Origin: an uncultured Bacteroidota bacterium
GTDB lineage: Bacteria; Bacteroidota; Bacteroidia; B-17B0; Aurantibacillaceae
Direction: 5' to 3'
Length of the DNA: 64,000 nt
NCBI GenBank assembly: GCA_937873155.1
Contig: CALMVZ010000027.1
Coordinates: 62,001-126,000 of the forward strand
Shown piece after piece: positions 28,699 to 46,996 of the stretch. How positions within the stretch are numbered: position 1 is the stretch's first letter; every line of letters begins with the position of its first letter. The notes under the pieces were generated by a model. That model had not been told where the DNA came from and ran no database searches. It was given only the letters and a program-made list of their open reading frames with translations. A program made the position numbers and the translations under genes.

Positions 28699-28699
28699 A

Positions 28700-29959
28700 A
28701 TGCTGTACTATTTATTTCAATATTTAGATAAATTAGATTTCCCGGGAGCGGGTGTATTCCAATACATTTCCTTCCGCGCAGCATTGGCATTGATCACTTC
28801 GTTATTGATCACCTTAGTTTTTGGTAAGCGTATCATTAATTATATCCGCAAAAAACAAATTGGTGAAACGATCCGTGAATTAGGTTTAGAAGGACAAGTA
28901 CAAAAAGCAGGAACTCCGACTATGGGAGGGTTGATCATTATTGCCGGTATCATCATCCCAACCTTATTATTTGCTAAAGTATTTAATGTTTATATCGTGC
29001 TGATGATCATCTCCACTATTTGGCTGGGGGGAATTGGTTTCCTGGATGACTATATAAAAGTATTCCGTAAGAATAAAGAAGGGCTGCAAGGAAAATTCAA
29101 GGTGATCGGTCAGATCGGTATCGGATTGATCGTTGGGTGCACATTATATTTTCACCCGGATGTAGTCATCAAAGAAAGAATTGAAAGAACACAAACACAT
29201 TTAGGTGATGTGACCGTTCAGACAGAATCAGCATCTAATATGCCTAAGTATGCGGAGAAACCCGTTAAAACTTTAAAGACAACGATCCCATTCTTAAAAA
29301 ATAATGAATTGGATTACGGGAAATTTATCTCATGGGCGTGTGATGATTGCTCAAAGTATGGCTGGCTGATCTTTATTCCAATGGTGATCCTGATTGTTAC
29401 CGCAGTTTCGAACGGAGCAAATATTACAGATGGTATTGATGGATTGGCTGCAGGAACGAGCGCAATCATTGGTGTGACGCTTGGAATTTTAGCTTATGTA
29501 TCCGGTAACAAGATCTTTGCAGATTATCTCAATATCATGTACCTGCCAAATACAGGTGAACTCGTGGTATTCATCGCAGCATTCATTGGCGCTTGCATCG
29601 GTTTCCTTTGGTATAATTCTTTCCCCGCTCAAGTTTTTATGGGTGATACGGGAAGTTTGGCGATAGGCGGAATTATTGCTGTGTTCGCAATTGCTATCCG
29701 TAAGGAATTATTGATCCCGATTTTATGTGGCGTGTTCCTGGTAGAGAATCTTTCTGTGATCATGCAAGTGTTCTATTTCAAATACCAAAAGAAGAAACGT
29801 GGATTGGAATATGCACAAACTCACCGCTTATTTAAAATGGCGCCATTACACCATCATTATCAAAAAGTGGGAATGCATGAATCAAAGATCGTGATGCGCT
29901 TTTTTATTATCGGAATTGCATTAGCAGTATTAACCATCGTAACACTGAAATTAAGATAG
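28700..29959 (+). CDS. mraY: Phospho-N-acetylmuramoyl-pentapeptide transferase
   Basis: 419 residues, about ten membrane helices. Catalytic motifs: [15 protein letters not shown] (Asp-Asp), [24 protein letters not shown] and the [11 protein letters not shown] loop. The length exceeds the E. coli enzyme because of an extra loop around residues 155-210, usual in Bacteroidota. It makes lipid I from UDP-MurNAc-pentapeptide and undecaprenyl phosphate. Confidence 0.97.
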
Positions 29960-29960
29960 T

Positions 29961-31304: not shown

Positions 31305-31321
31305 ATTTTAATTAAAGCGTA

Positions 31322-32470
31322 ATGAAGTTTTTTAATTATTTAAAAGGCGATAAAGTGATATGGGCGATAATGTTATTGTTATCCCTTATCTCTATATTGG
31401 TCGTGTATAGCGCCATTGTTACGCTTGCGCATAAATTCAAGCAAGGGAATACCGAGTATTATTTAATAAAACATGTAGTTATTATTTCATTGGGATTTGG
31501 TTTAGCTTACCTGTTTCATAAAATAAAATACACGGTGTTCTCTAAAGTTGCCCAGATCGGATTTGTGTTATCTATTCCGCTTCTTATTTACACTTTGTTA
31601 AGCGGCAAGACAGCAGGAGATGCTAACCGTTGGTTGGAGATCCCGGGGATCGGGTTAACTTTTCAGAGTTCGGATATTGCTAAATTAATGTTGTTATTAT
31701 ATGTTGCAAGGGTATTAACCACAAAACAAGAATTACTTGTCGATTTTAAAGCAGTAATGAAGTATCTGTTAGTACCGATAGGAATTATTTGCGCTTTGAT
31801 CTTACCTGCTAACTTTTCTACAGCGGCACTTTTATTTTTGAATTGTATGTTCTTAATGTTCATTGGCAGAATAAAAATAAAATTCATGTTAATGATAATC
31901 GGCGCGTGTATGTTATTCGCATTATTGTTAGGAGTTGTAGTTTATCAGTTTCCAAATGTAATTCCGCGCGGTTCAACATGGAAGGCACGTATCGAGAATT
32001 TCTCTAAGGGCGATTCAAAAAGTAATTATCAAAGCGAGCAGGCGAAAATTGCAATTGCCACAGGTGGTGTTATAGGAAAAGGTCCCGGGAATAGTACACA
32101 ACGTGCTTTTTTACCTCAGGCTTCTTCCGATTTTATTTACGCTATCATCATTGAAGAGTATGGTTTGCTTTTAGGTTTCTCAATGTTATTCCTTTACATG
32201 ATATTTTTATTCAGGGGGATCAAGATCATGCGAGATACAGATAAAACTTTTGGCGGTTTTTTGGCCGCGGGTTTAACATTCAGTTTGGTATTCCAGGCAT
32301 TAATTAATATGGCGGTCGCTGTGAATTTATTCCCGGTAACAGGCCAGCCTTTACCTTTAGTAAGTATGGGTGGAACTTCGATCTGGTTCACTTGTATCGC
32401 GATCGGAATTATTTTAAGTGTAAGTCGTAGCCACGAAGACAAAACAGAAGAGAACCTTGAGTCGGCTTAA
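31322..32470 (+). CDS. ftsW: Septal peptidoglycan glycosyltransferase FtsW
   Basis: 382 residues, eight to ten membrane helices. SEDS-family landmarks: DANRWLEIPGIGLTFQSSDIAKL, the loop SDFIYAIIIEEYGLL with the conserved acidic residues, and LPLVSMGGTSIW. It polymerises lipid II at the septum in complex with FtsI. The 3' end overlaps murG by 14 nt. Confidence 0.96.
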   Translation: MKFFNYLKGDKVIWAIMLLLSLISILVVYSAIVTLAHKFKQGNTEYYLIKHVVIISLGFGLAYLFHKIKYTVFSKVAQIGFVLSIPLLIYTLLSGKTAGDANRWLEIPGIGLTFQSSDIAKLMLLLYVARVLTTKQELLVDFKAVMKYLLVPIGIICALILPANFSTAALLFLNCMFLMFIGRIKIKFMLMIIGACMLFALLLGVVVYQFPNVIPRGSTWKARIENFSKGDSKSNYQSEQAKIAIATGGVIGKGPGNSTQRAFLPQASSDFIYAIIIEEYGLLLGFSMLFLYMIFLFRGIKIMRDTDKTFGGFLAAGLTFSLVFQALINMAVAVNLFPVTGQPLPLVSMGGTSIWFTCIAIGIILSVSRSHEDKTEENLESA

Positions 32471-33566
32471 AGTCATATTAAGTGGCGGCGGAACCGGCGG
32501 CCATATTTTTCCTGCAGTATCTATTGCGAATGAAATAAGATCCATCGTACCTGATGCTGAAATTTTATTTGTGGGCGCTCTCGGAAAAATGGAAATGGAA
32601 AAAGTGCCGGCTTCCGGATATAAAATTATTGGTTTACCTATTGCGGGTATTCAACGTAAGTTGACTTTATCAAACTTGAAATTTCCTTTCCTTCTTATAA
32701 AAAGTATTTTGAAAGCACGCTCGATAGTGAGAGAATTCAAACCGGATGTTGTTGTTGGCACAGGAGGTTATGCCAGCGGTCCGCTATTAAGAGCAGCTAC
32801 TTCAATGGGAATCCCCGCCTTGATCCAGGAACAGAATTCTTACGCAGGCGTTACAAATAAATGGCTTTCTAAAAAAGCGAGTAAGATCTGTGTGGCTTAT
32901 GAAGGCATGGAACAATTCTTTCCCAAAGAAAAAATTATTTTAACCGGTAATCCTGTCAGACAAGACATAAAAGACATTGATGAAAAAAAAGGTGAAGGAC
33001 AAAAATTCTTTAATCTTGATCCAAGCAAAAAAACTTTGTTAGCTGTTGGAGGAAGCCTCGGAGCAAAAGGAATTAACGAAGCTCTTGGAATGGGATTAAA
33101 AGAGATAGCAGATAACAACATTCAACTGATCTGGCAAACAGGCAAACCATATTTCGAAACTGCAAAACAGCAGACGGCTCCTTTTAAGGAAAAGAACATT
33201 AATGCGGTGGATTTTATTTCAAGAATGGACCTTGGGTATGCAGTTGCGGATGTTGTTATTTCAAGAGCAGGAGCAGGGGCTGTCTCTGAGTTATGCATCG
33301 TAAAAAAACCGAGCATTTTGGTTCCATTATTAACGGCAGCTGAAGATCATCAGACTAAAAATGCAATGTCGTTAGTAAATAAGAACGCAGCGATTTTAGT
33401 AAGGGATGATGAGACCAAAACAAAATTAGTAAAGGAAGCTATTGCTTTAATGAAAGATAATTCAAAACAGGAAGAATTAAGTAAAAATGCGGCAAAACTG
33501 GCACTTCTTAACTCAGCCAACGTTATAGCTAAAGAAGTATTAAAACTAGCCAACTATAAGCCCTAA
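32457..33566 (+). CDS. murG: UDP-GlcNAc:undecaprenyl-PP-MurNAc-pentapeptide GlcNAc transferase
   Basis: 369 residues, TTG start inside ftsW. The glycine-rich GGGTGGHIFPA loop, VVGTGGYASGPLL, IQEQNSYAGVTNKWLS and the C-domain SRAGAGAVSEL with PLLTAAEDHQTKNA define MurG. It converts lipid I to lipid II on the cytoplasmic face of the membrane. Confidence 0.97.
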   Translation: MSRLKVILSGGGTGGHIFPAVSIANEIRSIVPDAEILFVGALGKMEMEKVPASGYKIIGLPIAGIQRKLTLSNLKFPFLLIKSILKARSIVREFKPDVVVGTGGYASGPLLRAATSMGIPALIQEQNSYAGVTNKWLSKKASKICVAYEGMEQFFPKEKIILTGNPVRQDIKDIDEKKGEGQKFFNLDPSKKTLLAVGGSLGAKGINEALGMGLKEIADNNIQLIWQTGKPYFETAKQQTAPFKEKNINAVDFISRMDLGYAVADVVISRAGAGAVSELCIVKKPSILVPLLTAAEDHQTKNAMSLVNKNAAILVRDDETKTKLVKEAIALMKDNSKQEELSKNAAKLALLNSANVIAKEVLKLANYKP

Positions 33567-33586
33567 ATCTACCAACTCCGAACTAA

Positions 33587-34975
33587 ATGAAGATCCTCGA
33601 CTATAAACTATATTATTTCCTCGGTATCGGCGGCATCGGCATGAGTGCCCTCGCCCGTTATTTTGAGCATTACGGTAAAAAGGTTTATGGTTATGATAAA
33701 ACAGCAACAGCATTAACAGCCGAATTGGAGAAGGAAGGGATTCCTTGTCATTACAGCGAGGATGTTGATCTTCTTAAAAAGATCCTTTCCAGTTATAAAC
33801 CTGAAGAAGTATTGATCGTTTACACCCCGGCCGTACCAAAAGATCATGCTGAATATGTTTATCTGACCTCTAACAATTACCTTATTCAAAAACGTTCGGA
33901 GGTTTTAGGTGAGATCACCAAACAATTTAAGACCATTGCCATCGCCGGAACACACGGTAAGACCACAACAACAACACTAGTGACTCACTTATTGAAGACC
34001 GCAGGCATAAATTGCTACTCGTTCATGGGTGGCATTTCAAAAAATTACGGAACAAATTTGCTCTTTGGTGACCCAAATGACAAAGACGCATACGTAGTTG
34101 TGGAAGCTGATGAGTACGACCGTTCTTTCCTCACCCTTTTCCCTCAAATAGCTGTTATTACAAGTGTTGATGCAGATCACTTAGACATTTACGGTAACAA
34201 GGATGCCATGAACGAAAGCTATCTTTTGTTCTCGAAACAGGTGAAAAAAGGGGGTGTACTGATTGTTAAAAAAAATGTTGATAACGAATTGAAGCTCACC
34301 GATAAGAGGCTTATCTACTCCCTAAATTTAAATACGGGATATTGTGCCGAAAACGTGCGTGTTGAACACGGCGAGTTTCATTACGATATAAAAAGCGAGG
34401 TAGAGGCTGTAAGTGGCGTCACCATTGGGCTTCCGGGCTTGCACAACGTTGAGAATTCGATTGCCGCAGTGGCGGTCGCTCAGAATTTAGGAGTGAAAGC
34501 AGAAAAAATCAGAGAAGCATTACGTTCTTTTCAGGGTGTTAAACGCAGATTCGATTACAGGGTGAAAAAATCAAACATTGTTTATGTTGACGATTACGCT
34601 CACCACCCTGAAGAATTGAAAGCAGCGATCGGTGCAGCAAAGCAATTGTATCCCGATAAAAAAGTGACCGGCATTTTTCAGCCACACTTGTTTTCGAGAA
34701 CAAGGGATTTCGCAGATGGTTTTGCTGAAAGTCTGGATCTGTTGGATGAATGTATTTTACTCGACATCTATCCGGCAAGAGAAAAACCGATCGAAGGAGT
34801 AACATCGCAAATGTTACTGGATAAAATGAAGTCGAAACAAAAGCACCTGGTGAAAAAAGAGAACCTGATGGAATTTTTAAAAAACAAACCGTTGGAAGTG
34901 CTGATGACAATGGGAGCAGGGGATATCGACAAGTTCGTTCAACCGATTGAAAAGTTATTGAAAAATAGAATATAA
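33587..34975 (+). CDS. murC: UDP-N-acetylmuramate:L-alanine ligase
   Basis: 462 residues. LGIGGIGMSALARYF (N-terminal nucleotide fold), ATP loop AGTHGKTTTTTL, EADEYDRSFL, DADHLDIYG, DYAHHPEELKA and FQPHLFSRT are all MurC motifs. First Mur ligase step. A hairpin repeat of the CCCCTCTC type follows 8 nt after its stop. Confidence 0.97.
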   Translation: MKILDYKLYYFLGIGGIGMSALARYFEHYGKKVYGYDKTATALTAELEKEGIPCHYSEDVDLLKKILSSYKPEEVLIVYTPAVPKDHAEYVYLTSNNYLIQKRSEVLGEITKQFKTIAIAGTHGKTTTTTLVTHLLKTAGINCYSFMGGISKNYGTNLLFGDPNDKDAYVVVEADEYDRSFLTLFPQIAVITSVDADHLDIYGNKDAMNESYLLFSKQVKKGGVLIVKKNVDNELKLTDKRLIYSLNLNTGYCAENVRVEHGEFHYDIKSEVEAVSGVTIGLPGLHNVENSIAAVAVAQNLGVKAEKIREALRSFQGVKRRFDYRVKKSNIVYVDDYAHHPEELKAAIGAAKQLYPDKKVTGIFQPHLFSRTRDFADGFAESLDLLDECILLDIYPAREKPIEGVTSQMLLDKMKSKQKHLVKKENLMEFLKNKPLEVLMTMGAGDIDKFVQPIEKLLKNRI

Positions 34976-34983
34976 ACTTTGCT

Positions 34984-35003
34984 CCCCTCTCTTTGGAGAG
35001 GGG
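34984..35003. repeat. CCCCTCTC-TTTG-GAGAGGGG hairpin repeat
   Basis: A perfect 8-bp stem with loop TTTG in the 44-nt murC-ftsQ spacer, followed by TTGTGGGTGAGG. This hairpin plus the following G-rich tail is a widespread intergenic repeat whose minus strand reads PHPQPLSKERG in one frame. The lack of a T-run after the stem argues against full termination inside the dcw operon. Confidence 0.65.
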
Positions 35004-35019
35004 TTGTGGGTGAGGCCAA

Positions 35020-35829
35020 ATGAAGATCAATTATAAAAAAATAGTAGTTACAGTTCTTTGGATTATTGCATTATCGGGCCTTATGGCTTCGTTAGCATTT
35101 GTGGGTAAGAAAGAAAGACTGATAAAAGCTGAGAATATCGACATCACTGTCAATACAACCGGCGAGAACCAATTCATAGATGAAGACGGTGTGAAAGATT
35201 TTTTTAGTGAACGCCGGGATATTATCCTAAACGCAGAAGTAAAGAACATCGACATTCACGCCCTTGAAAAAGCATTGAACTCGCATCCTGCAATTGAAAA
35301 CGCTGATATGAGCATGGATGTTAATGGCGATGTGAAGATCAATGTGACACAACGCACGCCGTTGGTAAGAGTTTTGACCATGGGTGGGGAAAGTTACTAC
35401 ATCGATACACAAAGTAAATTGATGCCGCTGAGTGATAAATACACAGCGAGGGTTTTAGTAGTGAATGGTTTTGTTCACGAACCTTACTCAAGACGACACA
35501 TGTTCTCAGTGAATGAAATTGCTAAGAACGAAATTTTTAAGGAAGTAAGCATGCTGGATGATATTTATGAGATGGCAACTTACATCACAAAAGATACTTT
35601 GTTGAATAGTTTAATTCACCAATTAAGCATTAATGAAGAAAAAGAATTTGAAATGTATCCGGCCATTGGAAATCATAAAATTGTTTTTGGACCGGCAACC
35701 GATATTGCAGAGAAATTTGAAAAATTAAAAGTGTTTTACAAAGAAGGTCTGAATAAGACCGATAATTGGAATAGATACTCAGTAATAAATTTAAAATATA
35801 GTAACCAGGTGGTTTGCACCAAAAAATAG
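35020..35829 (+). CDS. ftsQ: Cell division protein FtsQ/DivIB
   Basis: 269 residues. A short cytoplasmic tail and one membrane helix (VTVLWIIALSGLMASLAFV) are followed by a POTRA-like domain (NIDITVNTTGENQFIDEDGV, HPAIENADMSMDVNGDVKINVTQRTPLVRV) and the beta domain. The family is weakly conserved. Topology and place between murC and ftsA support the call. It recruits FtsL/FtsB to the divisome. Confidence 0.9.
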   Translation: MKINYKKIVVTVLWIIALSGLMASLAFVGKKERLIKAENIDITVNTTGENQFIDEDGVKDFFSERRDIILNAEVKNIDIHALEKALNSHPAIENADMSMDVNGDVKINVTQRTPLVRVLTMGGESYYIDTQSKLMPLSDKYTARVLVVNGFVHEPYSRRHMFSVNEIAKNEIFKEVSMLDDIYEMATYITKDTLLNSLIHQLSINEEKEFEMYPAIGNHKIVFGPATDIAEKFEKLKVFYKEGLNKTDNWNRYSVINLKYSNQVVCTKK

Positions 35830-35834
35830 AACGT

Positions 35835-37184
35835 ATGGAAAAGAACCTTAGCAATCAAAACCCAGAATCTGATTTAGTGGTTGGATTGGATATTGGAACA
35901 ACTAAAATTGCCGCTATCGTTGGTAAAAGAAACGAATTCGGTAAAGTTGAGATATTAGGGATCGGTAAAGCCGAATCACTCGGTGTGAACCGTGGAGTGG
36001 TTGTGAACATTGAACAAACTGTAGCTTCTATCAAAACTGCAGTTGCAATTGCGGCTGATAAAGCTAATGTAGATATCGGAGAAGTGATCGTTGGTATCGC
36101 AGGGCAACATATAAAAAGTGTTCAGCACCGTGGTATGATCACCCGTCAATCGTTGGATGATGAAGTTTCTCAAAAAGATGTTGATACTTTGATCGATAAC
36201 ATGCACCGTTTGGTAATGAGCCCGGGCGAAGAAATTATCCATGTGATCCCGCAAGAATATATCATCGACAGCGAGATCGGGATTAAGAATCCTATCGGGC
36301 ATGCCGGTATCCGTTTAGAAGGGAACTTCCATATCATCACAGGGCAAGTTTCTGCTGTAAAAAATATTTTCAAATGCGTTAACCGTGCTTCTTTAGAAAC
36401 TATCGATCTTCATTTAGAGCCATTGGCAAGTGCTGATGCAGTTCTAAGCGATGAAGAAAAAGAAGCAGGTGTTGTTTTAGTTGATATCGGAGGTGGTACA
36501 ACTGACGTGGCTATTTTCTATGATGGAATTATACGTCATACTGCAGTTATTCCTTTCGGTGGAAATATCATCACTGAAGATATTAAAGAAGGATGCAGCA
36601 TTATTAAAACACAAGCTGAACAATTAAAAGTTCGGTTCGGTTCTGCATTAGCCCAGGAAAACCAGGAGAATGAAATTATATCAATTCCGGGTTTACGTGG
36701 CCGTCCGCACAAAGAAATTTCGGTAAAATTCTTAGCGCAAATTATCCAGGCGCGTATGGAAGAGATCTTAGAATTCGTTCTCTTCGAAATTAAGAACTCA
36801 GGTTTCGAGCGTAAACTTTCTGCAGGTATTGTTGTTACAGGTGGTGGTTCTATGTTAAAGCACTTACCACAACTAGTAATGTTAACTACAGGAATGGATT
36901 GCCGTATCGGTACGCCTAATGAACATTTAGCTGCATGTGATGATGAGTTGAAAAATCCTTTATATGCAACAGGTATAGGTCTTGTGATGAAAGGTATCGA
37001 GAAATACGAGCGTGAAGCAAGAAAAACTGGCGCGAACTCTGTTAAAGTTGCAGTGGAAGCAAATGTTGAAACACCAGTAAAAGAAGATAAAAAAGTAACC
37101 GATCACTCCAGTAAAAAAGCAGGTAGTTTCTTCGATACTTTAATTACCCGAGCTAAAGACTGGATGAGCGATGATATAGAATAG
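35835..37184 (+). CDS. ftsA: Cell division protein FtsA
   Basis: 449 residues from ATG at 35835. An in-frame ATG at 35814 would overlap ftsQ by 16 nt and add seven residues. Actin-fold motifs: VVGLDIGTTKIAAIVG (phosphate 1), VLVDIGGGTTDVAIF (phosphate 2), VVTGGGSMLKHL (adenosine), and the SHS2/1C region IAGQHIKSVQHRG. The C-terminal amphipathic segment SFFDTLITRAKDWM is the membrane-targeting helix. It tethers FtsZ filaments to the membrane. Confidence 0.96.
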   Translation: MEKNLSNQNPESDLVVGLDIGTTKIAAIVGKRNEFGKVEILGIGKAESLGVNRGVVVNIEQTVASIKTAVAIAADKANVDIGEVIVGIAGQHIKSVQHRGMITRQSLDDEVSQKDVDTLIDNMHRLVMSPGEEIIHVIPQEYIIDSEIGIKNPIGHAGIRLEGNFHIITGQVSAVKNIFKCVNRASLETIDLHLEPLASADAVLSDEEKEAGVVLVDIGGGTTDVAIFYDGIIRHTAVIPFGGNIITEDIKEGCSIIKTQAEQLKVRFGSALAQENQENEIISIPGLRGRPHKEISVKFLAQIIQARMEEILEFVLFEIKNSGFERKLSAGIVVTGGGSMLKHLPQLVMLTTGMDCRIGTPNEHLAACDDELKNPLYATGIGLVMKGIEKYEREARKTGANSVKVAVEANVETPVKEDKKVTDHSSKKAGSFFDTLITRAKDWMSDDIE

Positions 37185-37256
37185 TTCGTAGTTGTTAGTT
37201 CGTAGTTCGGAGATAAACCGCAACACCACGAACTACGAACTCTGAACTACCAACTA
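37183..37256. repeat. Long imperfect hairpin of CGAACTAC units between ftsA and ftsZ
   Basis: The left arm 37183-37210 (TAGTTCGTAGTT units) is nearly complementary to the right arm 37228-37256 (ACGAACTACGAACT units), about 23 of 28 positions. It starts inside the ftsA stop codon and fills most of the 107-nt ftsA-ftsZ spacer. It may act as a transcript stability or attenuation structure, or be a simple mobile repeat. Confidence 0.6.
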
Positions 37257-37291
37257 AAAATAAAATTAATAACTAATAAATATACCAACAC

Positions 37292-38866
37292 ATGATGCAA
37301 TTTGAATTACCACAGGACGACAGTTCGATCATTAAAGTGATCGGCGTTGGCGGCGGCGGAAGCAATGCCGTAAACCATATGTACCGTTTAGGTATTAAAG
37401 GTGTAGATTTCATAGTATGTAACACTGATAAACAGGCTTTGGAAAAAAGCCCTGTTCCAAATAAAATTCAATTAGGTAATTCCTTAACAAAAGGATTAGG
37501 CGCAGGCTCTATTCCTGATGTCGGCCGTGAAGCCGCATTAGAATCAGTAGAAGATGTCCGTAAATATCTTGAGGACGGAACGCAGATGGTTTTCATCACT
37601 GCAGGTTTAGGCGGCGGAACCGGAACCGGTGCTGCTCCTGTGATAGCTTCGGTTGCGCGTGAATTGGGTATTTTAACTGTTGGTATAGTTACAATTCCGT
37701 TTGCATTCGAGGGAAAAAAACGCCGCTTACAAGCCGAAGCAGGTTTGGAAGAGATGAAAAAATACGTAGATACTTTATTAGTTATTGGTAATGATAAATT
37801 ACGCGAGATCTACGGCAACTTAAAAATGAGCGAAGCATTTGCTCATGCAGATGATGTATTAACGGGTGCTGCAAAAAGTATCGCTGAGATCATCAGTTTA
37901 CATATGCACGTTAACGTTGATTTCAACGATGTGAAAACTGTAATGAAAGATAGCGGTGTTGCAATTATGGGTTCTTCAGTTGCAAGCGGTGAGAACCGTT
38001 CTATAAAAGCAGTTGAAGAAGCCTTGAATTCTCCTTTATTAAATGATAATGATATCCGAGGTGCCCGTCACGTACTTTTAAATATCATGAGCGGAAGTGA
38101 TGATATCGATATGGATGAATTCGGTGAGATCACTGATTTTATCCAGGAAGCTGCAGGGGGTACTGCCGAATTAATTACCGGTTACGGAACGGACCCTTCA
38201 TTAGGAGACAGTGTTTCTGTAACAATCATCGCTACAGGATTCAAAACTTCACAAATGTCAGGTTACGAGCCGCCGATCATTAAAGAACGTAAACTGGTTA
38301 ATCTTGATCAGAAAGAAACCAAAGTTGAAGACACAAAACAAACGAATATCATTGACGAAATTAAGGCCAATGAGCCGTTTGTATTCGTGAAAGAAACTAA
38401 GGAAGAAAAAACTGAGACCCCGGTTGTGAATGTAATTCCTCCGGTAACTGAAGAAAAAGAAGAGATCACTTTCACTGTAAATACAACCGAAACTGTTTCT
38501 GAAATAAAAAATGACGAGATCGTTTCTGAAACTACAAATACAACTGAGTTCACGTTCCATACGATCTCTGAGAAAACGGAAGAAAATGTTGAGAACACGA
38601 ATGAAGAAGCAGTTTCACGTGAAGAGCAAATTAAATTAGCCCAGGAACGTATTCGCAAACTGAAAGAGATCACTCTTAAAATGAAGAGTCCTGATGGATT
38701 AGCAATGCTAGAGAAAGAAACAGCATTCTCGCGCAAGAACATTGCATTAGAGAACAAAACTCCGTCTACCGATTCGGAAGTATCGCGTTTCACTTTATCA
38801 GAAGGTGATGATAAGAAAATTGAGATCCGCCCGAATAACTCGTTCTTACACGACAATGTAGATTAA
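37292..38866 (+). CDS. ftsZ: Cell division GTPase FtsZ
   Basis: 524 residues. The tubulin signature GGGTGTGAAPV lies at residues 107-117 and the N-terminal GVGGGGSNAVNHM nucleotide loop is present. The C-terminal synergy loop contains NFNDVKTVMKDSGVAIMGS-type sequence. Beyond residue 330 comes a long Glu/Thr/Lys-rich linker (about 150 residues) ending in NNSFLHDNVD, the tail typical of the phylum instead of the proteobacterial DIPAFLR peptide. It polymerises into the Z-ring. Confidence 0.97.
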   Translation: MMQFELPQDDSSIIKVIGVGGGGSNAVNHMYRLGIKGVDFIVCNTDKQALEKSPVPNKIQLGNSLTKGLGAGSIPDVGREAALESVEDVRKYLEDGTQMVFITAGLGGGTGTGAAPVIASVARELGILTVGIVTIPFAFEGKKRRLQAEAGLEEMKKYVDTLLVIGNDKLREIYGNLKMSEAFAHADDVLTGAAKSIAEIISLHMHVNVDFNDVKTVMKDSGVAIMGSSVASGENRSIKAVEEALNSPLLNDNDIRGARHVLLNIMSGSDDIDMDEFGEITDFIQEAAGGTAELITGYGTDPSLGDSVSVTIIATGFKTSQMSGYEPPIIKERKLVNLDQKETKVEDTKQTNIIDEIKANEPFVFVKETKEEKTETPVVNVIPPVTEEKEEITFTVNTTETVSEIKNDEIVSETTNTTEFTFHTISEKTEENVENTNEEAVSREEQIKLAQERIRKLKEITLKMKSPDGLAMLEKETAFSRKNIALENKTPSTDSEVSRFTLSEGDDKKIEIRPNNSFLHDNVD

Positions 38867-38885
38867 TTAATGATTAATATTAATT

Positions 38886-38916
38886 AAGCCCCTTCTGAAA
38901 AGCCGGGGCTTTTTTG
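38886..38916 (+). terminator. Terminator closing the dcw cluster
   Basis: AAGCCCC (38886-38892) pairs with GGGGCTT (38905-38911), followed by TTTTT. It lies 20 nt after the ftsZ stop. Confidence 0.8.
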
Positions 38917-39029
38917 TTTATACAAAATTTCTCCCCCTTTTTTCAAGGGAGAATACCCGCTTTTGAGTAAGAGAGGGAGTCTTACGTGATATCCGATTTT
39001 TACCGTAAATTAGCTTAAAATTTAAAAAT

Positions 39030-39473
39030 ATGAGTTTCGAAGAAAAGATCAATGGTGATATAAAAACTGCCATGCTGGCTAAGGATAGTAAAAAGCTTGA
39101 AGTTTTAAGAGCGATCAAAAACGTGGTGATCATTTTAAAAACTTCACCGGAAGGTATTTCTGATGATGGCATTATGAAATCGATCGCAAAAGAAGTAAAA
39201 AAACGTAAAGAGGCAGCCGATATATTCAAACAACAGAACCGTGCTGATCTGGCTGATGTGGAACTATACCAAGCCGGTGTAATGGAAGAATATTTACCTA
39301 AACAAATGGGAGAAGGGGAGATCAAAGCTGAACTTGAAAAAATAATCGCGCAGGTTGGCGCTACTTCTGCTGCTGATCTGGGCAAAGTAATGGGTGCTGC
39401 TTCAAAAGCATTTGCAGGAAAAGCTGATAACAAGATCGTATCACAATTAGTAAAAGAACTTTTAACTAAATAA
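39030..39473 (+). CDS. GatB/YqeY domain protein
   Basis: 147 residues, the usual size. SFEEKINGDIKTAMLAKDSK, LRAIKNVV, KRKEAADIFKQQNRADLA and EYLPKQMGEGEIKAEL match the YqeY family, which resembles the tail domain of the GatB subunit of tRNA amidotransferase. Its function in isolation is not established. Common just after ftsZ in Bacteroidota. Confidence 0.9.
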   Translation: MSFEEKINGDIKTAMLAKDSKKLEVLRAIKNVVIILKTSPEGISDDGIMKSIAKEVKKRKEAADIFKQQNRADLADVELYQAGVMEEYLPKQMGEGEIKAELEKIIAQVGATSAADLGKVMGAASKAFAGKADNKIVSQLVKELLTK

Positions 39474-40062: not shown

Positions 40063-40527
40063 TCATGAAAGAAGTTTTTGCCTTAACATAAACTCCAATT
40101 GTTCATTAGCCTGAATTAATTTCTGCAACAATTCTTTGTTATCTTTTCTCAGATTATAAACTTCCATTGCATTGTCGATGGTCATTTTTAACTCAAGATC
40201 ATTAAACGGTTTGGTAATATATCTGAACACCTGGCCTTTATTTATAGAATCTATTACCACTTCAATATCAGAATATCCCGTCAGCAAGATCCGTATCGGA
40301 TCAGGAAATTCTTTGATTACATCCTGCAGGAATTCAACACCCGTTTTCCCCGGCATCCGCTGATCCGTGATCACCACCTGGATATTATTTTCTCTTAAGA
40401 TCTTAAGCGCGTCATTTGCATTCTCAGAGGTAAATATTTTATAATCCCTTCTGAAATTAGCTTTGAACGTAACTAAATTATTTACTTCGTCATCAACGTA
40501 TAAGATTGATATTTCTTCACTTTCCAT
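40063..40527 (-). CDS. Response regulator, stand-alone receiver with C-terminal coiled coil
   Basis: 154 residues. The receiver domain spans 1-120 with acidic pocket YVDDE, phospho-acceptor Asp55 in VVITDQRMPG, a Thr in LLTGYSD and Lys in ITKPF. A 30-residue coiled-coil tail follows (DNKELLQKLIQANEQLEFML). It is closely similar to the receiver at the N-terminus of the hybrid protein encoded at 44642 (shared NNL-FKAN, TDQRMP, INKGQ). It is encoded divergently from the E1-like operon and may be its phosphoryl carrier or sink. Confidence 0.85.
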   Translation of the reverse strand: MESEEISILYVDDEVNNLVTFKANFRRDYKIFTSENANDALKILRENNIQVVITDQRMPGKTGVEFLQDVIKEFPDPIRILLTGYSDIEVVIDSINKGQVFRYITKPFNDLELKMTIDNAMEVYNLRKDNKELLQKLIQANEQLEFMLRQKLLS

Positions 40528-40662
40528 GAAAATAATTAAGCTTAAGAATAAAATAGAATAGAAAATGGGGGCGATCTATTCACAACAACTAGGCGAAATT
40601 ACTCAAAATTTTCATTAATTTATTCTAAATTGCAGCTTAAACCTGTAAACTAGCGTTACAAC

Positions 40663-41775
40663 ATGCAATTTGCTATTCATAAACATATTGCAGAGACTAA
40701 GCTCAATTCAAACGAATACAGTCCTGTATTCTACCGATTAACTAATTCAACTGACGAAGCAGCCTTTTTGAATTTGTTGAACACTAATAGACAGCTTCAG
40801 GTGTACGATGAAATTCATGGACAATTGGAAGAATTAGTGAAGGCCCTGAATCCGCAAACTGTTTTTACAAGTGAAAATTTGTCGAAAAAAGCAGTTGAGC
40901 ATTTGGGAAATACGCCCAAAGAAAAATATGGGGTTTGGGTGTATTACAAATGGTCGAACAAATTAGTTCATATCCTCGATGAAAAAGAATTTGTTACAGT
41001 AAGGACCAATCGCAATCAGAATAAAATAACCGAAAAAGAGAAACAATTGCTTTCCAAAAAAAAGATCGGTGTTATCGGACTTTCTGTTGGACAATCTGTG
41101 GCTTTAACGATGGCGATGGAACGTATTTGCGGCGAGTTACGCATTGCGGATTTTGATATTCTTGAACTTAGTAATTTGAACAGGATAAGAAGCGGTGTTC
41201 AGAATTTGGGAATTAGAAAAGCAGTGGCTGTTGCAAGAGAAATTGCAGAGATAGATCCGTTCTTAAAAGTAACTTGTTTTCCTGAAGGAATTTCAGAAGA
41301 GAATATAAACGATTTCATTCATGCGAACGGGAAACTGGATGTACTGGTTGACGAATGCGACGGTCTGTATATAAAAATATTGTGCCGCCAAAAAGCGAAA
41401 GAATATAAAATTCCGGTTATAATGGATACTTCTGACAGGGGAATGATCGATATAGAACGTTTTGATCTCGAACCTAACCGTCCGATACTTCACGGTTTGA
41501 TCGATCATTTAGATATTGAAAAAATAAAAGAAGCAAAAACGAACCAGGAAAAGCTTCCATTCGTAGCTGCAATAATTGGCCTGGATACAATTTCTCAACG
41601 CTTGAAGGATTCGTTAGCCGAGGTTGGAAAATCAATTGTAACATGGCCGCAATTAGCATCATCGGTTACATTAGGCGGTGCGGTTATTTGTGATATAAGC
41701 CGTAAGATACTTTTGGATCAGCTTTCTGTTTCGGGAAGATTTTTTGTTAACGTGGATGAAATAATTAAAGAGTAA
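40663..41775 (+). CDS. E1-like (ThiF/MoeB-type) adenylating enzyme, Rv1355c-like
   Basis: 370 residues. An N-terminal region of about 125 residues containing YGVWVYYKWSNKLVHILDE precedes an E1-like Rossmann domain: GVIGLSVGQSVALTMA, ADFDILELSNLNRIRSG (substrate Asp and Arg finger), LGIRKAVAVA (Lys) and VDECDGLYIKI (Asp). No CxxC zinc pairs are seen. E1-like enzymes adenylate a carboxyl terminus or small acid. The Rv1355c branch in mycobacteria often carries a nitroreductase-like half, absent here. First gene of an operon with a GNAT-like enzyme and sensor kinases; the next ATG directly follows its stop. Confidence 0.82.
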   Translation: MQFAIHKHIAETKLNSNEYSPVFYRLTNSTDEAAFLNLLNTNRQLQVYDEIHGQLEELVKALNPQTVFTSENLSKKAVEHLGNTPKEKYGVWVYYKWSNKLVHILDEKEFVTVRTNRNQNKITEKEKQLLSKKKIGVIGLSVGQSVALTMAMERICGELRIADFDILELSNLNRIRSGVQNLGIRKAVAVAREIAEIDPFLKVTCFPEGISEENINDFIHANGKLDVLVDECDGLYIKILCRQKAKEYKIPVIMDTSDRGMIDIERFDLEPNRPILHGLIDHLDIEKIKEAKTNQEKLPFVAAIIGLDTISQRLKDSLAEVGKSIVTWPQLASSVTLGGAVICDISRKILLDQLSVSGRFFVNVDEIIKE

Positions 41776-42516
41776 ATGGAACTAAAGATCAGGATATACA
41801 AAGCAACGGATAATCCGGAAGCATGTGAGCGCTTTGCGAGAGGGCATGAAAATGTATTGTTAGATTACGGAATAAAAAAAGTGACGTCCTCCGGCACAAG
41901 CTGGTTCAATGATCCGGATGTTTTTATTGTGATGGTGGAATCTGTGTCAGGAAAAGAATTATATGGCGGTGCGCGATTGCATATCAAGAATAAAGAGCAC
42001 CTTTTACCAATAGAAAATGCCATTTCCAAAATGGATAAAAGGATCCATGATCTGATCAATCCTGAATTAGCGTTTAAAACAGGAGAGCTGTGCGGATTAT
42101 GGAATACAAAAAATATTTCCGGTAACGGGCTTAGCGCCATGTTGGTGAGAACCGGTGTAGCAAAAGCAGGGATCTTCATCGCTGAAAAATATAATTTAAG
42201 ATCACTATATACATTAAGCGCACCATGGACAATAGGAATGGTAAAGAAAATAGGATTTGTGGTCGAGGAATCCGTAGGGAATAAAGGAGAATTCGCTTAT
42301 CCAAAGCCCGACCTGATTGCAACTGTTTTAGTGTTAAATGATATTCTTACGCTGAAAAATGCAATTCAGGAGGAAAAAGAAGATATCTTTAATCTGAGGG
42401 AAAATCCTGTTCAAAAGCGAGTAGAGAATGGACCTAAAGGAAGAATAGAAGTTGAGTATGATCTTGTAATTAAAAACAGTTTAATGGATGTAAAACCTGA
42501 ATTGGTTCATGCTTAA
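41776..42516 (+). CDS. GNAT/autoinducer-synthase-like acyltransferase
   Basis: 246 residues, starting directly after the E1-like gene. The core (YGGARLHIKNKEHLLPIENA, ELCGLWNTKNISGNGLSAMLVRTGVA, YTLSAPWTIGMVKKIGFVV) has the strand-helix order of the GNAT fold, with an aromatic and acidic N-terminal half as seen in acyl-homoserine-lactone-synthase-like and FeeM-like relatives. No canonical acetyl-CoA loop (Q/RxxGxG/A) is evident, so substrate and even activity are uncertain. Its stop overlaps the kinase start by 8 nt. Confidence 0.6.
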   Translation: MELKIRIYKATDNPEACERFARGHENVLLDYGIKKVTSSGTSWFNDPDVFIVMVESVSGKELYGGARLHIKNKEHLLPIENAISKMDKRIHDLINPELAFKTGELCGLWNTKNISGNGLSAMLVRTGVAKAGIFIAEKYNLRSLYTLSAPWTIGMVKKIGFVVEESVGNKGEFAYPKPDLIATVLVLNDILTLKNAIQEEKEDIFNLRENPVQKRVENGPKGRIEVEYDLVIKNSLMDVKPELVHA

Positions 42517-44641
42517 GAAAGGAATAAATGGTAAAATCATTTTGCTATTTGTATTACTCTTTGTAATGAGTAATGCGAGTGCAGATAGTTTATTTGTTTT
42601 TAAGAATGAAAAAAGCGTCGGGCAGATCTCAGGCCTTTATTATTATAAGGATGCAGATTCCAAATTGTCAGTTGAAGAAGTCCAGGAGAAGGATTCATTT
42701 ATTTTAAACCTACAACCTGTTACCAATTTGGGAATTATCAATTCTGCAGTTTGGATCAAAGTAAAGGTGAGAAATGAATCTTCGCAAAGTAATTTAGTGT
42801 TAGGCATTTCATATCCTATCCTTGATGAAGTGGAATTGTATGAGATAAATGAGAGCGGTGTAAGGTCTCTTGGCAAACAAGGCGACCAATTTCCGTATTC
42901 GCAACGAATTTATGACCACCAGCATTTTTTATTTGACATCTCAATTCCCGCTAACGAAACCAGATCATACATTCTCAGAGTTAAAACCTGGGAACAAATG
43001 GTACTCCCGATTTTTGTAGGAACTCCGAAAGTAGTTATGGAATCAAATTTAACCCAGGACCTGATCTTCGGTATATTTTTCGGAATCATGCTGAGCCTGG
43101 TCTTATACAATCTCTTCATTTATTTCACGGTACGGGATTCAAGCTATTTATTTTATGTCACCTACATTTTTCTTATATCATTAACCCAGGCTTGTTTGAA
43201 CGGTTATACTTTGAGGTTCCTGTTCCCTGACCATCCTGCTTTAGCCAACTCCTCTCTTATATTGATCAATTCATGTGCAGGTTTAGCATCAATACGTTTT
43301 ATCCAGTTGTTCATGGACACGAAAAAATTCGTTCCGACTCTGAATAAATTCTATTATGTGATCGGGGCCATTTACCTGGGCGGGATCATTTTCATTCTTG
43401 CAGGTGCAAAACAAGTGAGTTATAATTTAATGGATCTTGGTGGATTCCTGATTTCGTTCTATACTTTATTCATCGCTATTAAAATTTCTCTGAAAGGAAG
43501 TAAACCCGCAAAATTATTCTTATTAGCTTGGTCGGTATTCTTAATTGGCGTGATACTTTTTGTTTTGAAAAATGTAGGTGTCCTTCCTGCTAATTCTTAC
43601 ACGAATCATTTATTGACTTTCGGTGTTGCAACGGAAGGTATATTACTATCGATCGCATTGGCAACCCGGATCAATGATTATAAAAAGGACAAGGAAGCGT
43701 CGCAGTTAGAAGCCTATCAATTGCTGGAAGAGAAGAAACAGATCGTTCTCAACCAGAACATAATACTGGAAGAGAAAGTAAAAGAAAGAACCTTAGAATT
43801 GAATGAAGCGGTGATCCATCTTAAAGAAACCCAGTCTCAGTTAGTGGACGCGGAAAAAATGGCGTCACTGGGCCAGTTGACCGCCGGTATTTCTCATGAG
43901 ATCAATAATCCGATCAACTTTGTGGTGTCTAATATCAAACCACTAAAGCGTGATATCCAGGAGATCATCAGTATTTTAAATAAATACGGCGAGATCTCTG
44001 ATCCGGCTCAGTTAAAAGAGAAACTGGAGGAAATAAATTCTTTAAAGAAAAAACTGGATTCAGATTACCTGATCGAGGAGATCAATTTACTATTGAAAGG
44101 AATTGATGAAGGCGCTAACCGGACCTCTGAGATAGTAAAAGGTTTAAAGAATTTCGCACGAACGGATGAAGCTGACCTGAAAAAAACAAATATTCACGAA
44201 AGCATCGAAGCAACATTAACCCTTTTAAATAACAGCCTTTCTGAAAATAAGATCAGGGTCGAAAAGAATTTCGGCTCTATTCCGCAAGTGGAATGCTATC
44301 CGGGCAAGATCAACCAGGTGATCATGAATTTGCTCAGCAACGCTATAGATGCCTTAAGGCCGGTAAGTAACCCGTCAAAAGTGATTTCAATAGAAACTCA
44401 ATTGAGTGGGAATGATGTAATAATCCATATTTCAGATAATGGGGTTGGTATCCCAAAAGAAATAATCTCTAAAATATTCGACCCCTTTTATACGACTAAA
44501 GACGTAGGCGAGGGCACGGGCCTGGGCCTCTCTATTGTTTACGGCATCATAAAAAGTCATAATGGGAAAATTGATGTAAGGTCGGAAGTAAATAAAAACA
44601 CTACTTTTGCGATAACCTTACCTGTACAACACCAAAATTAA
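42509..44641 (+). CDS. 7TMR-DISM sensor histidine kinase
   Basis: 710 residues. The signal peptide ends near residue 25. A 7TMR-DISM extracellular beta domain (about 30-165) precedes seven membrane helices (about 183-390), a coiled coil (400-450), a HisKA domain with His463 in LTAGISHEINNP, and an ATPase domain with N611 (NLLSNAIDAL), DNGVGIP and GTGLGLSIVYG. 7TMR-DISM receptors are thought to bind extracellular carbohydrate-like or small ligands. Cotranscribed with the E1-like and GNAT-like genes upstream; the hybrid kinase follows at once. Confidence 0.93.
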   Translation: MLKKGINGKIILLFVLLFVMSNASADSLFVFKNEKSVGQISGLYYYKDADSKLSVEEVQEKDSFILNLQPVTNLGIINSAVWIKVKVRNESSQSNLVLGISYPILDEVELYEINESGVRSLGKQGDQFPYSQRIYDHQHFLFDISIPANETRSYILRVKTWEQMVLPIFVGTPKVVMESNLTQDLIFGIFFGIMLSLVLYNLFIYFTVRDSSYLFYVTYIFLISLTQACLNGYTLRFLFPDHPALANSSLILINSCAGLASIRFIQLFMDTKKFVPTLNKFYYVIGAIYLGGIIFILAGAKQVSYNLMDLGGFLISFYTLFIAIKISLKGSKPAKLFLLAWSVFLIGVILFVLKNVGVLPANSYTNHLLTFGVATEGILLSIALATRINDYKKDKEASQLEAYQLLEEKKQIVLNQNIILEEKVKERTLELNEAVIHLKETQSQLVDAEKMASLGQLTAGISHEINNPINFVVSNIKPLKRDIQEIISILNKYGEISDPAQLKEKLEEINSLKKKLDSDYLIEEINLLLKGIDEGANRTSEIVKGLKNFARTDEADLKKTNIHESIEATLTLLNNSLSENKIRVEKNFGSIPQVECYPGKINQVIMNLLSNAIDALRPVSNPSKVISIETQLSGNDVIIHISDNGVGIPKEIISKIFDPFYTTKDVGEGTGLGLSIVYGIIKSHNGKIDVRSEVNKNTTFAITLPVQHQN

Positions 44642-46030
44642 ATGGAATCAAGCAAGATCAAAGTACTTTACGTTGACGATGAGCCTAACAATCTGATTTC
44701 TTTTAAAGCCAATTACCGTGAGTTTTTCGAGATCTATACAGCTGAGTCGGCAGAGGCTGGAAGAAAATGCATTGAGAAGAATGAGATCCATGTATTGATC
44801 ACCGATCAGCGGATGCCCATCCAGAATGGCGTTCAGTTCCTGGAATCAGTTGTAAAAAATAATCCTCAGATCATCAGGATCATATTAACGGGTTATGCGG
44901 ACTTGGAAACAGTTGTTGAAGCGATCAATAAAGGACAGATCTATAAATACATCATCAAACCTTTCGATTTTGATGATCTGAAATCAACTATTGAAAGCGC
45001 TTATGACCAATATGTTTTCAGAAAAAGCGGTGAAGAAGCCCTCTCGAAATTCAGGCAGTTATTTGAAAAGCAGAATGAAGCCATTTTCATTATGGATTCG
45101 GCGTATTACATAAAAGAGTTCAATAATTTCGGGTTGAATCTCTTTAAGATACAGCGCAACGAGCTCAATAAAATATACCTGGCCGATCTTTTCAGCAGAT
45201 CGACAGAATGGGATAAGATCAATAAGATGCTGGGGACTGATCAGCCGATAGTAGATGTGCCTGTTCAGTTAATGGATTCAAAAAAGAGAATTGTTGAAGC
45301 ATTGATCTCAGTGATAGCCATAAAAGAGAATGGAACACTTATTGGTTACCAGGGTATGATAAGGGATATTACCAAGCAAAAGGAAATGGAAAGCCTGTTG
45401 ATCCGCGCCATCATTGAAACGCAGGAAAGCGAACGCATGCGTTTAACACAGAATCTTCACGACAGCATGGGGCAAAAATTATCGGCGGTAAGGATGTTCC
45501 TGCAAACACTTTCAAATTCAGCCGGGAATCTGTCGAAGAACGAAGCTTTCATTAAATCGAACGATGTAATAAATGAAACGATAATTGAATTGAGAGGCAT
45601 TTGTTTTAACATAATGCCTAAGACACTGAATGTTTCAGGTTTGGAAGCAGCTATCAATGAATTAACGCGGCAAAATTCTTTAAAAGGTGTTATTGAATTC
45701 AGTGTTAAGTTCCATGGTGCTTTTCCGAAACAGGATGGTAATTACGAAATGGCAGTTTTCAGGATCGTTCAGGAATTTATTGCTAATTCAATTAAACACG
45801 GCAAAGCAAAAAAGATCGGCCTGAATTTTTCTTGCGGCAAAGAAAAACTGGAAATTATCCTGAAAGATGACGGGCAAGGATTCGATCAATCCAAACTCTC
45901 AGCCGGTTCAGGAATGGGTTTAAAGAATATCAAAACAAGAGTACAATCGTACGGAGGACAAATAGATATTAAGGGTGAGATGGGAGCGGGCGTGGAATTT
46001 ACGATAGTAATGCCTTATTTAAAATCTTAA
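44642..46030 (+). CDS. Hybrid response regulator / PAS / NarX-type histidine kinase
   Basis: 462 residues. Receiver domain 1-120 with Asp55 (LITDQRMP); PAS domain about 135-250 (FEKQNEAIFIMDSAYYIKEF, GYQGMIRDITKQKE); HisKA_3 dimerisation domain with His273 in LTQNLHDSMGQKLSAV; ATPase domain with FIANSIKHGKAKK, DDGQGFD and GMGLKNIKTRVQ. HisKA_3 kinases usually phosphorylate NarL-type regulators, and one is encoded 0.3 kb downstream. The start is immediately after the 7TMR kinase stop, so phosphotransfer from one to the next is a reasonable inference. Confidence 0.93.
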   Translation: MESSKIKVLYVDDEPNNLISFKANYREFFEIYTAESAEAGRKCIEKNEIHVLITDQRMPIQNGVQFLESVVKNNPQIIRIILTGYADLETVVEAINKGQIYKYIIKPFDFDDLKSTIESAYDQYVFRKSGEEALSKFRQLFEKQNEAIFIMDSAYYIKEFNNFGLNLFKIQRNELNKIYLADLFSRSTEWDKINKMLGTDQPIVDVPVQLMDSKKRIVEALISVIAIKENGTLIGYQGMIRDITKQKEMESLLIRAIIETQESERMRLTQNLHDSMGQKLSAVRMFLQTLSNSAGNLSKNEAFIKSNDVINETIIELRGICFNIMPKTLNVSGLEAAINELTRQNSLKGVIEFSVKFHGAFPKQDGNYEMAVFRIVQEFIANSIKHGKAKKIGLNFSCGKEKLEIILKDDGQGFDQSKLSAGSGMGLKNIKTRVQSYGGQIDIKGEMGAGVEFTIVMPYLKS

Positions 46031-46032
46031 AG

Positions 46033-46075
46033 GAACCCCTCCGCCCGGAGGCGGAAGGGATCTTAACAGGGGTTC
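46033..46075. repeat. Branched hairpin element after the kinase operon
   Basis: GAACCCCT (46033-46040) pairs with AGGGGTTC (46068-46075). Inside, TCCGCC-CGGA-GGCGGA (46040-46055) forms a second hairpin. GC-rich against its surroundings, no T-run. Possibly a REP-like element or an RNA 3'-end protector. Confidence 0.55.
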
Positions 46076-46217
46076 TATGATGACATAGATGTTGTTGTTT
46101 TTACTCTTACCTTACACGGTATTTGGATTGGGCCCTGCTAATGTTTATTCATTTTTCCTTTAAAAAATTACAAAACTAAGCTAACCGTACAAAGTTGGGT
46201 ATCTTAAATTCTTTCCG

Positions 46218-46234
46218 CAACGTATAAAACACGT
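46218..46234 (-). promoter_or_regulatory. ACGT-motif copy 1 (inverted relative to copy 3)
   Basis: CAACGTATAAAACACGT is the exact 17-bp reverse complement of copy 3 at 47026-47042. The core ACGTGTTTTATACGT has inverted ACGT ends. Candidate binding site of the regulator encoded between the two copies. Confidence 0.5.
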
Positions 46235-46278
46235 AAAAATTAGCGTGAAAAGAGAGGTGAAAAAGGTGTTTTGGCAAA

Positions 46279-46304
46279 AAACCTACGTGTTTAGACGTAG
46301 GTTT
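46279..46304. promoter_or_regulatory. ACGT-motif copy 2 within a 10-bp inverted repeat
   Basis: AAACCTACGT (46279-46288), loop GTTTAG, ACGTAGGTTT (46295-46304). The centre ACGTGTTTAGACGT resembles the core of copies 1 and 3. It sits where the -33 element of the promoter at 46322 would be, suiting an activator site. Confidence 0.5.
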
Positions 46305-46321
46305 AAATCAAAAAACTGTGT

Positions 46322-46329
46322 TAAATTTG
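46322..46329 (+). promoter_or_regulatory. -7 element of the NarL-type regulator gene
   Basis: TAAATTTG matches TAnnTTTG, 13 nt before the TTG start. No TTG -33 element lies 19-21 nt upstream; the ACGT-motif inverted repeat ends there instead. Confidence 0.5.
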
Positions 46330-46342
46330 ATTAAACTATATC

Positions 46343-46996
46343 TTGATTAAAAACCTTAAAATATTAATTGTAGACGATCATCAATTGGTGAGAGACGGGA
46401 TCAGGCACATGCTTTTATCTCAGCCCAGTCAATTTAAATTTAACATTTCAGAAGCCGATTGCAGCGAAGAAGCATTTAAAAAAACATTGGCTGAAGATTT
46501 TGATGTCATTTTAATTGATTATCAATTGCCTGATGTGATTGGTCCGGCTGCAGTAAGCAGGATCTTGTATTATAAACCGATCTCAAAAATACTTGTGCTC
46601 TCCAATTACGATGAGTATTCATGTATACTGAATATGAAACAATCGGGTGTGAAAGGGTATGTACTAAAGAACATTTCCCCGAAAGAGCTCATAACCGCCA
46701 TAGAAACGATTCTCTCGGGCAAAAAATATTTCTCCAAAGAGATCAGTGAAAAACTGAAGGATCTTAAAAGAAAAAAGGACAGGACCATGACCGAAAGGGA
46801 AAAGTTGGGGGTTACTAGCCGTCAGATAGAAATATTAAAGCTGATTTCAGACGGTATGACCAATGATGATATTTCAAAGAAATTAAAATTAGCTAAGCGT
46901 ACCATTGATACGCACCGGCAAAATCTTCTTATTAAATTGGGGGTGAACAATACAGCTGCTCTCATTAAAAAAGCAGCCGAGCTTTCCATACTATAA
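46343..46996 (+). CDS. NarL/LuxR-type response regulator
   Basis: 217 residues, TTG start. Receiver domain 1-125 with IVDDH and phospho-acceptor Asp59 (VILIDYQLPD), Lys in YVLKNISP. The C-terminal LuxR helix-turn-helix is GVTSRQIEILKLISDGMTND followed by ISKKLKLAKRTIDTHRQNLL. Natural partner of the HisKA_3 kinase encoded upstream. Flanked by three copies of an ACGT-ended motif, which suggests autoregulation and control of the next gene. Confidence 0.92.
   Translation: MIKNLKILIVDDHQLVRDGIRHMLLSQPSQFKFNISEADCSEEAFKKTLAEDFDVILIDYQLPDVIGPAAVSRILYYKPISKILVLSNYDEYSCILNMKQSGVKGYVLKNISPKELITAIETILSGKKYFSKEISEKLKDLKRKKDRTMTEREKLGVTSRQIEILKLISDGMTNDDISKKLKLAKRTIDTHRQNLLIKLGVNNTAALIKKAAELSIL

Follow-up and report, generated by a model that had tools for sequence, protein, structure and literature searches.

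Little is known about small-molecule signaling in the Bacteroidota. The biosynthetic enzymes closest to those described here belong to the N-acyl oxazolone pathways TrzAS, TyzACB and OxzAB of Mycobacterium, Rhodococcus and Pseudoalteromonas. TrzA is the N-acyltransferase of the TrzS pathway, and TrzS, which is Rv1355c, uses its ThiF domain and ATP to cyclize N-acyl tryptophan and its flavin oxidase domain to desaturate the ring (PMC12856293). TyzA, an N-acyltransferase of oxazolone synthesis, has FeeM (2G0B) and BjaI (5W8C) as DALI neighbors (PMC10404671). The physiological role of the N-acyl oxazolones is regarded as a major unresolved question (PMC12856293). The closest sensory system is phcBSRQ of Ralstonia, which comprises a signal enzyme, a sensor kinase, a REC-kinase without a DNA-binding domain and a receiver-only protein (PMC8578825).

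The locus analyzed here lies on contig CALMVZ010000027.1 of a member of the Aurantibacillaceae (Bacteroidota), within a stretch of 64,000 nucleotides that we call the window. The open reading frames are exactly where the initial annotation had placed them, and coordinates and domains (Pfam, NCBIfam) agree with its description of four contiguous genes with a NarL-type gene after them and a receiver gene that diverges from the operon. The features are as follows.

40063..40527, minus strand: stand-alone receiver, 154 aa (Pfam Response_reg, 2.8e-17), divergent and in a PhcQ-like position.
40528..40662, unstranded: divergent intergenic region of 135 bp, the presumed site of the promoters that drive the operon and the receiver gene.
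40663..41775, plus strand: E1/ThiF-like cyclase, 370 aa, a relative of the TrzS/OxzB cyclase domain (NF005901) in which the flavin oxidase domain is absent.
41776..42516, plus strand: predicted GNAT-fold N-acyl amino acid synthase or AHL-synthase-like acyltransferase, 246 aa.
42509..44641, plus strand: 7TMR-DISM sensor histidine kinase, 710 aa, with signal peptide, DISMED2 ectodomain, 7TM, HisKA and HATPase_c.
44642..46030, plus strand: REC-PAS-HisKA_3-HATPase protein without a DNA-binding domain (Pfam), 462 aa, in a PhcR-like position.
46036..46059, unstranded: G+C-rich hairpin in the gap that separates the hybrid gene from the NarL-type gene, with a T-rich tail on the minus strand.
46343..46996, plus strand: NarL-type response regulator, 217 aa (Pfam Response_reg and GerE), which may serve the HisKA_3 hybrid as DNA-binding output.

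The E1-like and GNAT-like genes are separated by a 0-nt gap, as are the genes for the 7TMR-DISM kinase and the REC-PAS-HisKA_3 protein, and the GNAT-like gene overlaps the 7TMR-DISM gene by 8 nt. The NarL-type gene begins 312 bp beyond the hybrid and is therefore probably outside the four-gene operon. Because the hairpin has this tail on the minus strand, it is not counted as the operon terminator. A comparison of 52 intergenic regions between the divergent receiver gene and the operon yielded no promoter motif, only recurrent A/T-rich 8-mers. Base composition is unchanged across the operon, which hence hardly resembles a recent island, and a search for plasmid carriage of the synthase gave zero matches. 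It lies just downstream of an apparent cell-wall and division cluster that ends in ftsA and ftsZ (window positions 25123-39473).

The first gene of the operon had been labeled ThiF/Rv1355c-like, and the label holds. The protein matches ThiF (7.8e-18) and the NCBIfam model NF005901, "Rv1355c family", scoring 483.1 bits where the cut-off is 476, the match spanning model positions 5-340 of 722 and hence the N-terminal half only. The ThiF-type cyclase domain that characterizes Rv1355c, TrzS and OxzB is thus present. A flavin-dependent oxidase is absent from the protein, from its neighborhood and from the whole window genome, and none of the TrzS type was found in seven genomes with E1 alone (that of the window and six others). 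Loss of catalytic residues in homologs, which the initial annotation had named as evidence that would count against its proposal, is not seen in E1: the glycine-rich loop, LSNxNR, K186 and D233 of the nucleotide site are invariant in ten aligned Bacteroidota sequences, and actinobacterial E1 relatives carry the same glycine-rich loop, LSNxNR, K and D motifs. D233 sits within a [DE]xCD motif, and we infer that it corresponds to TrzS D217, mutation of which abolishes cyclase activity. Judged by its family, the enzyme most likely cyclizes an N-acyl amino acid instead of producing an "adenylated" signal. Two further observations concern E1 genes. In a Streptomyces plasmid protein (L120:4194-6062), the E1 domain is apparently preceded by a fused acyl-synthase-like domain at the N-terminus. 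BrkB/YihY-family membrane proteins are encoded near E1 in a Bacteroidota locus (L016:7936-8892) and on a Rhodococcus plasmid (L116:10231-11181), either by chance or, possibly, as a transporter.

The GNAT-like protein has zero sequence matches in Pfam, NCBIfam and the PDB. An AlphaFold2 model built from 71 homologs (pLDDT 85.8) has BjaI, FeeM, MesI, TofI, RpaI and EsaI as its best PDB fold matches, and the top 14 are all AHL synthases or the N-acyl amino acid synthase FeeM, so that the structure prediction called for in the initial annotation bears out its label of an autoinducer-synthase-like protein. The protein has the LuxI/FeeM fold but no match to a sequence-family model, its identity to the superfamily being 10-15%. 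Its fold neighbors coincide with those published for TyzA, and the Bacteroidota synthase profile matches an unannotated gene next to trzS homologs on Rhodococcus plasmids, with 15 bits and an E-value of 2e-6 when five proteins were searched. By the FeeM/BjaI fold and this profile match, the N-acyl amino acid transferase that adjoins the cyclase in Rv1355c/TrzS/OxzB systems is also present. Two synthase genes occur in tandem, in one operon each, at L043:9225-10675 and L107:8744-10708, which perhaps means two acyl amino acids per locus.

The E1 and GNAT superfamilies are known to include protein-modifying enzymes, and the pair might act on a protein of the pathway, E1 adenylating a C-terminus and the GNAT-like protein acylating a receiver or kinase, with no small molecule involved. 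We consider this very improbable: the E1 protein belongs to the small-molecule cyclase family of Rv1355c/TrzS, the fold of the synthase groups with small-molecule acyl synthases, and relatives have flavin or methyl-transfer enzymes in the place of E1, as described below, which fits a small-molecule intermediate.

The third protein has the DISMED ectodomain, 7TM region and intracellular kinase of a 7TMR-DISM receptor kinase (Pfam 7TMR-DISMED2, 1.7e-29; 7TMR-DISM_7TM, 1.6e-47; HATPase_c, 2.8e-27). In a model of the sensor half (pLDDT 93), the ectodomain matches the periplasmic domain of RetS (3jyb and 2xbz; TMt 0.76); this 7TMR-DISMED2 domain also resembles carbohydrate-binding folds. The 7TM region lies in the membrane and is conserved. 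Sensors of other loci are 28-60% identical to that of the window, and H463 is invariant across 87 sequences. The window genome has two other 7TMR-DISM genes, whose products are 25-27% identical to the sensor and lack a matching kinase.

The hybrid has the Pfam domains Response_reg, PAS_9, HisKA_3 and HATPase_c. Its receiver and the stand-alone receiver are paralogs, as had been noted, with 51% identity over 143 aa. The phospho-acceptor D55 and K106 of the stand-alone receiver are invariant in 82 relatives, and the His and Asp phospho-sites are 100% conserved in 87 sensors, 70 REC-HisKA proteins and 82 receivers. The earlier proposal that phosphotransfer runs from kinase to hybrid to NarL-type regulator does not generalize, because most relatives have a REC-HisKA protein, often with a second short receiver after it, and single-domain receivers but no NarL gene. 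In the subgroup of the window, which has the REC-PAS-HisKA_3 form, a NarL-type gene adjoins the hybrid in 6 of 11 loci. There are zero cases of such a gene directly after a HisKA-type hybrid. A NarL-type regulator was rejected as a general part of the circuit: its gene is found next to hybrids of the HisKA_3 type alone, and next to some of these it is missing, the closest relative (L030) having none beside its hybrid. NarL output is plausible for the HisKA_3 subgroup alone. At L013:1826-3433 and L017:2535-4097, a few genes away from the circuit, is a gene for a REC-PglZ protein (a PorX-like regulator), in genomes of a genus (g16) that is Algoriphagus by name match of L013 and L102.

The synthase was found in 12 of 297 Bacteroidota genomes and, by profile, in 76 of 395 genomes of the class. 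Extended neighborhoods were obtained for 11, 80 and 27 loci, and conservation was counted after duplicates and loci cut by contig ends had been dropped. The synthase lies beside a 7TMR-DISM kinase in 98 of 99 nonredundant related loci; the REC-kinase is present in 91 of 93 and the opposite-strand receiver in 65 of 68. NF005901 E1 genes in 396 Bacteroidota genomes all (10/10) fall within these kinase-bearing loci. The initial annotation had reckoned conservation of the enzyme pair mostly without the kinases as evidence against itself, and neighborhood analysis found no such pattern. The locus is not a chance assembly, given that its genome has just three 7TMR-DISM genes and that the neighborhood recurs so consistently. 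The single exception is L172, with an E1 54% identical to that of the window, a divergent synthase and no kinases, possibly an enzyme-only form of the pair. Three other apparent exceptions (L138, L171 and L181) were discarded as ORF-calling artefacts, complete circuits being found there by tblastn. On actinobacterial plasmids, the related E1 genes lack a neighboring 7TMR kinase. A contig labeled Azovibrio restrictus (L058) carries a typical Bacteroidota circuit and is probably a misbinned MAG contig.

A tailoring enzyme is present in all 95 loci with enough flanking sequence, and its class varies: E1 fused to a flavin oxidase (42), E1 alone (33, including the window locus), class I SAM methyltransferase (15), FAD_binding_4 oxidase (3), ICMT-type methyltransferase (1) and an E1 fragment plus FAD oxidase (1). 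The counts are biased, the named loci being the top 80 of 502 matches. One more locus, cut by a contig end, has a Methyltransf_2 O-methyltransferase. E1, which had been taken as an integral part of the system, is not obligate, because methyltransferases or an FAD oxidase stand in for it in relatives. Its exchange for ICMT-type or class I methyltransferases fits a shared step on an N-acyl amino acid, plausibly one at the carboxylate, and exchange for carboxyl- or other methyltransferases points to a second step that would mask or modify the acyl amino acid.

In the agr and ComQXP pherotypes, the signal-maturation gene and the N-terminal half of the receptor change together and the kinase half is conserved. 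We compared trees of 79 loci using tailoring class as the label and residues 1-400 as the sensor half. The label changes 12 times on the sensor-half tree, 20 times on the kinase-half tree and 19 times on the synthase tree, against about 36 with shuffled labels. Column-matched trees gave mean changes of 13.0, 18.9 and 18.4, respectively, with ranges that do not overlap, and this subsampling rules out higher tree resolution as the cause of the tracking. Sphingobacterium illustrates the pattern within one genus. Its 20 loci (9 methyltransferase, 11 E1) form one mixed group in the synthase and kinase trees; in the sensor tree, its methyltransferase loci group with Hufsiella and other families. Between the two Sphingobacterium classes, identity is 69% in the synthase, 22% in the ectodomain, 36% in the 7TM region, 73/64% in the kinase and 65% in the REC-kinase, and the sensor halves are closer to those of Hufsiella-type loci with the same methyltransferase (ectodomain/7TM 33/54%). 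Sphingobacterium therefore swaps the tailoring enzyme with the sensor half and not with the kinase half, like quorum-sensing pherotypes. This co-segregation occurs solely in layouts that place the tailoring gene next to the sensor gene. With the tailoring gene between synthase and sensor (37 loci), the label changes 6.3 times on the sensor half versus 11.6 and 10.6 for the other two trees; in the layout of the window (41 loci), the figures are 5.8 versus 5.6 and 6.9, and the sensor half tracks the tailoring class no better than the kinase half does. Since the effect is absent where the two genes are apart, physical linkage could explain part of it.

That restriction agrees with another reading, in which the two-component system senses an environmental cue such as glycans or envelope state, as RetS does, and merely regulates production of an acyl amino acid lipid that is not its ligand. 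The RetS-like DISMED2 ectodomain, with its resemblances to carbohydrate-binding modules, would suit such a role, and oxazolones occur in actinobacterial relatives without such kinases nearby (PMC12856293). However, an environmental cue gives no reason to expect that, inside one genus, a change of tailoring enzyme goes with a change in the sensor half but not in the kinase half, or that the pair keeps its kinases throughout the phylum sample, and we regard this reading as unlikely. Less likely again is a feedback control of membrane lipid, in which the product stays in the envelope and the 7TM region monitors its level without cell-to-cell signaling. Mycobacterial tryptazolones are indeed mainly retained by cells, with the acyl-tryptophan intermediates secreted (PMC12856293), and the 7TM region has the conservation and membrane location that a lipid monitor would need. 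Yet every sensor examined in detail has an extracellular ligand-type domain, which is the fastest-changing part of the protein, and feedback control has no need of exchangeable tailoring enzymes.

The initial annotation had supposed that the enzymes make a small acylated or adenylated molecule that the kinase senses. The idea of an acylated product that the kinase senses gains support from the conserved gene pairings, the invariant nucleotide-site residues of E1 and the co-segregation in one layout; an adenylated product is less likely than a cyclized one. We think it likely that the operon is a synthesize-and-sense circuit for an N-acyl amino acid derivative, of which we infer the ligand and the density dependence. 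By its fold, the GNAT-like synthase would move an acyl group from acyl-CoA or acyl-ACP to the amino group of an amino acid. By its family, the E1/ThiF enzyme would then activate the carboxylate with ATP and close the ring to give an N-acyl oxazolone, with a saturated ring expected here because the window genome lacks the ring-desaturating flavin oxidase. The product would reach the periplasm or outer medium and bind the RetS-like ectodomain, the 7TM region or both. Given the intact phospho-sites, the kinase would shift phosphorylation of the two paralogous receivers, the one that stands alone and the one in the REC-PAS-HisKA_3 protein, and probably, in the HisKA_3 subgroup, of the NarL-type regulator too. 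Relatives retain synthase, sensor and relay, and a swapped middle enzyme would yield different signal variants. The chances seem to us evenly balanced for the wider proposal of a widespread and undescribed family of cell-to-cell signaling systems in Bacteroidota, in which N-acyl amino acids come from a FeeM/LuxI-fold synthase, the dialect depends on an exchangeable tailoring enzyme (cyclase, cyclase-oxidase, methyltransferase or FAD oxidase), a matched 7TMR-DISM kinase half reads it and dialects are swapped as cassettes.

Taken singly, the enzymes, receptor class and relay architecture are all known; their combination is apparently undescribed in the literature searched, outside which lie all preprints and most subscription journals. 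That literature contained neither a 7TMR-DISM autoinducer receptor nor a Bacteroidota N-acyl amino acid signal system, and no report of such a synthesize-and-sense circuit, of which the initial annotation had likewise known no characterized example. If the circuit is as proposed, 7TMR-DISM receptors would gain a defined class of self-made ligands, and the exchange of tailoring enzyme and receptor half together would amount to a system of chemical dialects. The operon links oxazolone-type enzymes to a receptor in culturable Pedobacter, Algoriphagus and Sphingobacterium, which makes the question of oxazolone function directly testable.

The locus shares with TrzAS, TyzACB and OxzAB a GNAT-fold acyltransferase and a ThiF cyclase, with an E1 in the same curated family, and 42 related Bacteroidota loci have the full architecture of TrzS, including the fused flavin oxidase. 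It differs in that the window genome has no flavin oxidase and in its linkage to a sensor kinase and relay, which is unreported for the known pathways. The operon presents the same set of roles as PhcBSRQ, and some relatives use a methyltransferase as signal enzyme; unlike PhcBSRQ, it has a FeeM/LuxI-fold synthase (GNAT plus E1) in place of a lone PhcB-type methyltransferase acting on a hydroxy acid, and its receptor is a 7TMR-DISM protein with a RetS-like ectodomain. The predicted fold is that of the LuxI and FeeM synthases, but here a partner enzyme would act afterward and a kinase takes the place of LuxR as receptor. RetS and other 7TMR-DISM receptors have the same DISMED2 ectodomain, 7TM region and intracellular kinase, whereas the window sensor shares its operon with a small-molecule synthase, an arrangement with no other case in the searched literature. 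As in agr and ComQXP, an enzyme and a receptor half change together; those systems use peptide signals and exchange a precursor gene, whereas here it is a tailoring enzyme that is exchanged, in a manner that depends on gene layout.
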